NCBI GenBank assembly: GCA_002479245.1
Contig: DLMG01000352.1
Location: 1 to 21,251, forward strand
Direction of reading: 5' to 3'
DNA length: 21,251 nt
Origin: Verrucomicrobia subdivision 3 bacterium UBA7542
GTDB taxonomy: Bacteria; Verrucomicrobiota; Verrucomicrobiia; Limisphaerales; UBA11358
The position numbers and the translations under genes are program-made. Shown one piece after another: positions 7,636-9,517 of the stretch. The notes beneath the pieces are model-generated. The model searched no databases and was not told where the DNA came from. It saw nothing but the letters and a program-made list of their open reading frames with translations. How positions within the stretch are numbered: the stretch's first letter is position 1; the number at the start of each line of letters is the position of its first letter.

Positions 7636-8925
7636 ATGAGCAAAATTGTTGATATCCAGGCGCGCGAAATCCTCGATTCGCGCGGTAACCCCACGGTGGA
7701 AGCTGATGTGACGTTATGCTGCGGCGCGTTCGGGCGCGCGTCAGTGCCCAGCGGCGCGAGCACCGGCGAACACGAAGCCATCGAACTCCGCGACGGCGAC
7801 AAAAAACGTTTCGGCGGCAAGGGCGTGCAGAAGGCCGTCAAGAATGTCACCGACGTCATCGCGCCCAAACTCATCGGTCTTGACCCATTCGATCAACTGA
7901 CCGTGGACGCCACGATGCTCAAGCTCGACGGCACGGAAACGAAGTCGAAGCTCGGCGCGAACGCCATTCTCGCCGTTTCGCTGGCCAATGCCAAGGCCGC
8001 CGCCGCCGGGCTGAACCAGCCATTGTTCCGTTACCTCGGCGGGCCGAACGCGAAAGTCCTGCCCGTGCCGATGGCCAACGTCATCAACGGCGGTGCGCAC
8101 TCGGATGCCCCGATTGATTTTCAGGAATTCATGATCATGCCGCTCGGCCTGCCGACGTTCAGCGAGGGGCTGCGCGCGATTGTCGAAACGTTTCACGCGC
8201 TGAAATCCGTTTTGAAAAAGAAGGGTTGCAGCACCGCCGTCGGCGACGAAGGCGGGTTCGCGCCCAAACTGGGCAGCGTGGAAGAGGCGCTGGAAACCAT
8301 CATTCAAGCCGTCAAGGATGCCGGCTACAAGCCGGGCAAGGACATTTATCTCACACTCGATCCGGCCGCGTCTGAATTTTACAGCGGCAATGCCAAATAC
8401 ACCTTCAAGAAAAGTACCGGCGAGACCGTCAGCGGTGACGACCTCGTGAGTTTTTACGCGAAACTCGTGGCGAAGTATCCGATTGTTTCCATCGAAGACG
8501 GCTGCGGCGAAAGTGATTGGGCGACGTGGAAAAAGCTCACCGACAAACTCGGCGACAAAGTGCAACTCGTCGGTGACGACAATTTCGTCACCAACCCCAA
8601 ATTCCTGCGTAAAGGCATCGAAATGGGCGTGGCCAACTCGATTCTGGTGAAGGTGAACCAGATTGGTTCGCTCACCGAAACTTTGGATTGCGTTGAACTG
8701 GCCAAAACCCACGCCTACACCGCCGTCATCAGCCATCGCTCCGGCGAGACCGAGGACGCGACCATCGCGGACATCGCCGTGGCGACGAACTGCGGCCAGA
8801 TCAAGACCGGCAGCTTGAGCCGCACGGATCGTCTGGCGAAATACAACCAACTGTTGCGCATCGAGCAATTGCTGGGCAGGAACGCGGTTTACGCCGGCAC
8901 CAGCGCGCTGCCGAAGGGGCGGTAA
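7636..8925 (+). CDS. eno: Enolase (phosphopyruvate hydratase)
   Basis: Enolase converts 2-phosphoglycerate to phosphoenolpyruvate in cytosolic glycolysis and gluconeogenesis; it may also be part of an RNA degradosome. The protein is full length (429 aa) and begins [20 protein letters not shown]. The substrate-loop SGAST is at 39-43. The catalytic acid is Glu205 in GDEGGFAP and the catalytic base is Lys339 in [10 protein letters not shown]. Magnesium ligands are Asp242, Glu287 (SIEDG) and Asp314 (GDDNF). The signature [19 protein letters not shown] is at 366-384 and the C-terminus ends [14 protein letters not shown]. The start is fixed by homology; the upstream ribosome site is weak (GGAAAA at some distance). 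The 3' end is notable: its last part exists as two degenerate copies elsewhere in the window (9401-9517 and 16137-16233), so the end of this gene may itself have been replaced. Confidence 0.98.
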
Positions 8926-8962
8926 GCTTGTGTTCGCCCGTGGCGAGAGTTAGATTCCGACC

Positions 8963-9400
8963 ATGGAACTCAAAGAACAATCAAAGCCTTACATGGGCGA
9001 AGTCAGAATCAAAGTGAAGTTGAGCAACGTAGCCGACCAGGCAGCGGTGGCTGCGGGACAGCTTTTGCCCGATCAGGTCAGAAATGTCGAAGCCGATGCG
9101 ATGGTGAACACTGGCGCGGTACGTTCATGTATTCCGGCCCCGCTGCTGGAGCGGTTGGGGATAAAACCTTATGACCAGGTGACGGTCGAACTTGCGGATG
9201 GCCGTAAGAACGAGGTGGGCATTGCTGATGGTGTGCGCTTCGAGATCATGCACCGCCGTTCCAGCGATGATGCTTTGATCCTGGGTGATGAAGTGTTGAT
9301 CGGCCAGACGTTGCTGGAGAAAATGGATTTGCTGATGGACTGCACCCGCCGACGTTTGGTGCCTGCTCATCCTGAAGGCGCGGTCAACAAGCTCAAGTAG
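8963..9400 (+). CDS. Retropepsin-like (clan AA) aspartic protease homologue with Asp-to-Asn active-site change
   Basis: The 145-aa protein matches the small bacterial clan AA aspartic-protease family. It has [10 protein letters not shown] near the N-terminus, the active-site loop [13 protein letters not shown] (46-58), ADGRKNEVG (78-86) and the family-specific [20 protein letters not shown] (108-127). The active-site motif in this family is normally DTGA; here codon 49 is AAC, giving NTGA. Members act as homodimers with one Asp each, so this change should abolish catalysis. The family motif MGEV starts at residue 11, so the ATG at 8993 may be the true start. The gene lies 37 bp after eno and ends exactly where a copied eno 3' end begins (9401), so it could have arrived with an insertion that duplicated that end. 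Family call good; activity doubtful. Confidence 0.8.
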
Positions 9401-9517
9401 CATCGCCGTGGCGACGAACTGCGGTCAGATCAAGACCGGCAGCTTGAGTCGCACGAATCGTCTGGCAAAATATAACCAGCTCCTGCGCATCGAACAATTG
9501 CTTGGCAAGAACGCGGT
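9401..9517 (+). pseudogene. Duplicated enolase 3'-end fragment
   Basis: These 117 bases align without gaps to the eno segment at 8772-8888 (106 of 117 identical by eye, about 91%). Read in the eno frame, 9 of the 11 differences are synonymous. The two amino-acid changes are Asp to Asn (codon AAT) and Arg to Lys. The fragment therefore comes from an eno that stayed functional while diverging, not from neutral decay of a recent copy. Similarity stops just before the final [11 protein letters not shown] codons. It begins directly after the TAG stop of the protease gene. It has no start and cannot make enolase. Confidence 0.85.

Follow-up and report, generated by a model that had tools for sequence, protein, structure and literature searches.

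The window, as the whole analysed stretch of 21,251 nucleotides is called here, belongs to a contig of 31 kb, and the genome that it comes from (G000) is fragmented. The intact enolase gene (eno) is followed by a protease homologue, a partial eno tail (T2), a response regulator, a histidine kinase, a gene encoding a 1055-aa protein, a third eno end (T3), a gene encoding a 763-aa protein and an SGNH esterase gene; an M3 peptidase gene lies beyond the window. The coordinates are presented in Table 1.

Table 1. Features of the window with their positions and strands.
Position	Strand	Feature	Remarks
7636..8925	+	eno, intact enolase, 429 aa	Enolase_N + Enolase_C (Pfam)
8772..8888	+	front repeat copy (T1)	codons 379-418 of the intact eno, end codons partial
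8963..9400	+	145-aa clan AA (retropepsin-like) aspartic protease homologue	starts 37 nt past the eno stop
9401..9517	+	T2, displaced eno tail	starts directly after the protease stop codon
9518..9588	.	dispersed repeat	starts where T2 breaks off; contains a 34-bp palindrome
9658..9754	+	3' UTR of T2	eno-type terminator hairpin at 9720-9753; matches the UTR of T3 at 76/99
9799..10488	-	response regulator	Response_reg + Trans_reg_C (Pfam)
10502..12514	-	sensor histidine kinase	HisKA + HATPase_c (Pfam)
12536..15703	-	1055-aa protein	CBM9 + laminin-G-like domains (Pfam)
16168..16233	+	T3, older, decayed displaced eno tail	further 24-nt match at 16133-16156
16248..16345	+	3' UTR of T3	with terminator hairpin
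16462..18753	+	763-aa protein	between T3 and the SGNH gene
18830..19990	-	SGNH/CE2 esterase	inferred ancestral downstream neighbour of eno in the clade; CE2_N + Lipase_GDSL_2 (Pfam)

The repeated eno end and the enclosed protease gene

An earlier note on this DNA had described an ungapped direct repeat of the eno end, and the repeat was confirmed: T1 and T2 are identical at 106 of 117 positions (91%) with a spacing of 629. When the copies were compared codon by codon, 9 of the 11 differences were synonymous, and the two non-synonymous ones were D398N in the second copy and K415R in the intact gene (direction determined from aligned relatives). The neutral expectation of the non-synonymous share was 0.72, and the probability of observing at most 2 of 11 was 2.9e-4. 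As nearly all the differences are synonymous, the two copies diverged mostly as parts of working enolase genes. The claim that both tails had been under selection was thus upheld, and a duplicate under neutral decay is strongly disfavoured by the excess of synonymous changes, as had also been proposed.

T2 lacks about the last 11 eno codons and the stop codon, and the break coincides with the start of the dispersed repeat at 9518. T3 was absent from the earlier note. In the search of the window's own genome, the second copy and T3 were detected with E values of 1.7e-40 and 2.7e-13, respectively. The 3' UTR and terminator of T3 agree with those behind T2 at 76 of 99 positions; the folding energies of the T2 and T3 terminators were -11.3 kcal/mol (z -2.9 vs shuffles) and -11.9 kcal/mol (z -4.6), respectively. 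A 71-nt copy of the dispersed repeat with 94% identity is present at G000:C148:28-98, and other places hold parts of it. The perfect 34-bp palindrome within it (9553-9586) was located in at least 18 exact places of the genome, its own included, plus partial ones, and the genome search identified no element encoding it (40 of 53 candidates scored in both cases).

The DNA between the repeat copies was determined to be 512 nt long (8889-9400) with the protease homologue as its one gene, in agreement with the approximately 0.5 kb stated before. The assignment of this gene as retropepsin-like was retained in part. The protein is a clan AA homologue, but its scores with TIGR03698 (E=3.5e-13, 49.8 bits) and PF13975 (26.8 bits) are under the curated cut-offs of 57.35 and 28.2 bits, respectively, and it carries NTG in the place of DTG. 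The catalytic motif of clan AA retropepsin-like proteases is D-T/S-G. In the window protease, residues 49-51 are NTG (D49N, codon 9107-9109) and the three aligned homologues have DTG; VDTG or IDTG was found in 69 of 80 related loci, the other 11 giving no match or a different match to the pattern. Because the catalytic Asp is replaced by Asn, the window protease is probably an inactive enzyme.

The response regulator and histidine kinase genes occur behind an eno tail also in the relative G031 (contig C160, L065). The 763-aa protein gave no Pfam or NCBIfam match at E<=0.001.

Order downstream of eno and recurrence of displaced ends

The genus set consisted of 49 genomes, and an eno match was obtained in 43 of them. 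In G060 and G025, the eno proteins of which are 96% and 93% identical to that of the window, eno is followed by the SGNH esterase and farther on by the M3 peptidase and an NtrC-type regulator. A second eno tail was looked for in these two genomes and was not found; the relatives, therefore, do not all carry both tails. Compared with G060 and G025, the protease, the two-component system and the 1055-aa gene intervene in the window, and displaced eno ends separate them. In G000, G001 and G023, the cargo is divided from the SGNH/M3 neighbours by a displaced tail. In the 9 genomes with both genes on one stretch, the distance from eno to the M3 gene varied from 753 bp (G065) to 12,599 bp (G000).

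Since the inferred ancestral neighbours stand beyond the tails, the displaced tails would mark the former end of eno. For the second tail, the preferred reading is that it is the old eno end after displacement, because eno is single-ended in G060 and G025 and both T2 and T3 are followed by a 3' UTR and terminator of the eno type. The earlier proposal that a foreign tail had come in and the old one had been pushed out stood, accordingly, as to the displacement, but the foreign nature of the front tail was not established: the two tails were about equally near to the sister species, with 109 vs 108 of 117 positions for G031 and 107 vs 106 for G060.

A search of 320 genomes of the order with the tail gave matches in 278. 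Genomes with two or more tail matches were followed, 41 of them in one comparison and the members of the genus and the nearest families in others. The arrangement of eno end, cargo and displaced tail was detected in at least 10 genomes of 4 families: G000, G001, G002 and G023 (f1), G126, G129, G134 and G135 (f37), G146 (f43), and G158 (f50). This count is a lower bound, because only genomes with two or more tail matches were followed; single-match genomes were left out, and shorter or more decayed tails may be missed. G134, G135 and G146 were counted though the contig edge cuts the eno body, and two contigs of G002 were treated as neighbours on account of 83 identical nt at their ends. Left out of the 10 were G038, with a piece at a contig edge; G305, G249, G100, G257 and G051, in which the genes are split or cut; G182 and G262, with tails of low identity away from the contig of eno; G092 and G031, with tails likewise on a different contig from eno; and G022, where only a short remnant was recognised by eye at the junction that it shares with G023. 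In place of the single event assumed earlier, several events in many genomes and with different cargo are indicated.

The cargo was phosphoglucose isomerase (PGI) in G126 and G135 and a lactate/malate dehydrogenase (LDH/MDH) in G134. Other cargo comprised beta-helix, Pmp-like, FG-GAP and surface proteins and the two-component system, and the protease was found in three families. The cargo of G001 includes a protein with a weak multihaem-cytochrome match, below the cut-off. Between two displaced eno tails of G129 (L150:4516-7948), a type ISP-like restriction-modification locus in two frames was observed. The Pfam scan covered part of the ORFs, namely 19 insert proteins of 10 genomes, among them the 763-aa protein located past T3 and a protein of G092; domains of integrases or transposases were not detected in these 19.

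Two other genes, atpD and recA, formed a small control set within the genus. No internal copy consisting of the tail alone was detected for atpD, with matches over the cut-off in 40 of 49 genomes (among the matches listed, to about E=5e-10), or for recA, with 43 of 49 genomes over the cut-off. Separate tails of eno were present in 5 of 43 genomes (G000, G001, G002, G023, G031). The shortened atpD matches (G002, G004, G065, G020, G030, G000, G010) have one end no more than 17 bases from a contig end, with the two pieces in G010 counted as one split gene; those of G059 and G060 were interpreted as split reading frames.

Blocks shared between families and the starts of the tails

The order of eno, protease and tail was the same as in the window in G134 (f37) and G146 (f43). 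Between G000 and G134, the eno end, the 37-nt spacer and the protease start were identical at 151 of 165 positions; by part, the agreement was 52/55 for the last eno bases, 34/37 for the spacer and 62/69 for the first protease bases. The corresponding values were 213/375 (57%) for the rest of the protease and 224/279 for the preceding part of eno. Over the last 55 eno bases, G000 was nearest to G134 (52) among 58 complete enos, followed by G060 (50). As descent alone is unlikely to yield such a block, the eno end and the adjoining protease were probably transferred together. The eno position at which the protease junction starts differs among the three families (154, 144 and about 182 nt); the junction was thus either formed repeatedly or trimmed afterwards, which counts against the explanation favoured below.

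The second shared junction was found in G022/G023 and G129. In small two-sequence comparisons with G129, the match of G022 covered 130 nt with 70% identity (E=2.7e-12) and that of G023 covered 51 nt (E=1.5e-7). The cargo proteins beside the junction in G023 and G129 are unrelated (E=0.36). When the junction DNA of G129 was searched across the 320 genomes, again only G022 was retrieved (E=2.4e-5) and G023 was not returned; matches in 14 further genomes, with E values from 9.8e-4 to 8e-3, were taken as chance. As two junctions, this one and the protease block, are common to f1 and f37, they fit a broader reading in which eno ends form a standing integrase-free cassette exchange site across the order, with eno-flanked blocks moving and swapping cargo between families by ordinary recombination, so that an essential gene would take the role of attachment site. 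We put this forward tentatively and consider it rather doubtful. In G031 (L065, L066), two eno ends have an identical 3' UTR stretch and differing tails; the pair could reflect gene conversion or strain mixing.

The starts of the tails were determined for the 13 tails with a readable start in the 10 genomes and G092, with T3 left out. Seven of the 13 start at 136-163 nt before the eno end, four at 355-375 nt, and two near 182 and 199 nt. No common core was seen by eye at these 13 starts. The starts range from about 136 to 375 nt ahead of the eno end, and this scatter does not support a fixed insertion site: the starts share no single base, which a site-specific recombinase would require. The crowding of the starts is not predicted by random joining and counts against the explanation favoured below.

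A crossover inside the tail would be expected to crowd the differences distally. Ten pairs of T1 and tail were compared for such crowding, and only two reached nominal, uncorrected significance: G092 (P=0.008) and G158 (P=0.02). For the window's own tails a crossover of this kind was not supported, as the distal excess was not significant (P=0.16). Recombination concentrated at the 3' end of eno was not seen either: the agreement of window-wise distances with those of the rest of the gene was lowest in its middle (nt 601-900) and not at the 3' end. The eno gene is mosaic, but not especially so at its 3' end; like the sparse distal crowding, this counts against the explanation favoured below. 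In the window eno (7636-8925), the first 540 nt have best identities of 90-98% per 60 nt to G060 or G031, nt 721-1020 reach only 76-88% at best, and nt 1021-1200 are 98-100% identical to G031.

Explanations for the displaced ends and related systems

We consider it fairly probable that the eno 3' end is, in this bacterial order, a recurrent insertion site of foreign DNA, where homology-anchored insertion has taken place repeatedly and the resulting eno-cargo-tail block has then spread by recombination. Incoming linear DNA headed by a relative's eno stretch would recombine with the resident eno via that homology, and the non-homologous other end of the DNA would be joined inside the old eno end. 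The left side of the insert is eno, and its right junction now abuts displaced eno sequence. As enolase is essential, only the events leaving a complete eno reading frame would survive. The old end, consisting of the tail, 3' UTR and terminator, would be shifted downstream, lose its function and decay. In the window at least two serial events would have occurred, the first bringing the two-component system and the 1055-aa gene and leaving T3, and the subsequent one bringing the protease and leaving T2. Since eno sequence is present on both flanks, the block or its cargo could pass to other species by ordinary recombination. A ComEC-type domain was detected in 15 of 15 genomes tested; as it was present also in 10 of 14 control genomes, it gives weak support for the possibility that genomes of the order take up DNA.

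The earlier note had compared the locus with prophage e14 in icd of E. coli. In that system the 3' end of a housekeeping gene is replaced and the old one displaced by a phage element, which has its own integrase and uses an att core that is fixed. The outcome at eno is the same, the 3' end being restored and the old end displaced, but neither an integrase (19 proteins scanned) nor a fixed core (13 tail starts) was seen, and the idea of an e14-like integrase element was left unsupported. In a looser form, a recombinase encoded elsewhere or lost would act near eno codons 376-384, and the element would bring the replacement tail. The intact eno is what such integration would leave, as it restores a complete eno end; the seven starts at 136-163 nt and the presence of the eno end and protease as a unit in three families also agree with it. 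Furthermore, the virus-labelled 5.7-kb contig L171 carries a tail-only eno (L171:4195-4473, codons 348 onward, 68% identity) away from the contig ends, beside ParB-like, DNA-methyltransferase-like and PurF-like ORFs recognised by eye. A phage-borne replacement tail would explain this find as well, and a phage route may have been involved. Against site-specific integration stand the domain scan and the tail starts, which differ by base and include those at about 182, 199 and 355-375 nt. In 5 of the other 6 eno loci on viral contigs the gene is nearly complete, and in the sixth (L173) the contig end truncates it. With near-complete eno in 5 of the 7 loci, phage origin was rejected as a general explanation, L171 being retained as support for site-specific integration. 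Matches to the eno tail were found in 32 phage records. We regard site-specific integration as unlikely.

Tandem duplication, by which each lineage would have copied its eno end and flank locally and later gained cargo between the copies on its own, would account for the tail of G001 and the first tail of G129, which are closest to the eno of their own genome (92% and 94%, respectively). It would require a separate gain of cargo every time and does not agree with the nearly all synonymous differences in the window (P=2.9e-4), nor with the same protease and a near-identical spacer and eno end in two families; we judge it improbable. Chimeric joins of eno strain variants in metagenome assemblies are very improbable: the source genomes are mostly fragmented assemblies, and the second tail of G031 lies at a contig end, its two eno ends sharing the identical UTR stretch, but tails are situated inside long contigs of different genomes (G001, about 30 contigs; G158, a 77.5-kb contig), some tails contain stop codons, deletions and decay, and atpD and recA have no such tails in the genus.

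The closest counterpart of the homology-anchored insertion favoured here was found in Vibrio cholerae, where 3' regions of T6SS effectors and orphan 3' ends of Rhs genes are described as products of serial displacement (Kirchberger et al. 2017, PMC5361080). For these arrays the available part of that article proposes a mechanism akin to homology-facilitated illegitimate recombination and reports no evidence of an integrase. As far as this part describes them, the T6SS/Rhs arrays share with eno a homologous anchor with non-homologous cargo, an old 3' part pushed downstream and array growth through successive events. They differ in that the displaced end originates from a different toxin or immunity module, whereas at eno it is a redundant copy; moreover, at eno the anchoring gene has an essential metabolic role, and the cargo bears no relation to that gene. 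By analogy, the proposal made for the arrays would fit an insertion that is anchored in eno by homology and joined illegitimately at its opposite end. In pneumococcus, transformation with partly homologous DNA can yield merodiploids carrying duplications with new junctions (PMC3784515); according to the excerpt available, these are mainly large tandem duplications between repeats, in contrast to the displaced gene ends behind cargo at eno. In Tn6212 the enolase gene is cargo and not the target site, judging from the accessible portion of the source (PMC12388829).

Our literature search, which covered few subscription papers, revealed no eno insertion hotspot. Gene-end displacement as such has been described before; the literature searched contained no case of a hotspot that recurs at an essential metabolic gene, apparently without an integrase, with unrelated cargo and with blocks common to several families. 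If the favoured reading is true, an essential, highly conserved gene can dock gained genes without an integrase, and decaying gene ends form a readable fossil record of the insertion events. The signature, a gene tail and terminator found again behind cargo, is searchable in any genome, and the process would explain the occurrence of the same gene at the same locus in different families.

The surroundings of the protease gene were compared at 80 loci. A conserved partner gene was rejected, as the recurrent neighbours were restricted to five Acidobacteria loci and the eno ends of two known loci. Plasmid carriage was also discarded, since the 7 Synechocystis plasmids matched at 29-34% identity and were judged not relevant. 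Six copies of the protease gene were observed in G258, a genome of the order (L130, L131, L132, L135, L136, L138), with no eno match in the surroundings examined. In the five Acidobacteria loci (L211, L212, L214, L216, L217), the protease relative is placed between sdhC-like and sdhA-like genes (named by eye); by this placement, the protease gene occurs also singly inside another metabolic operon.
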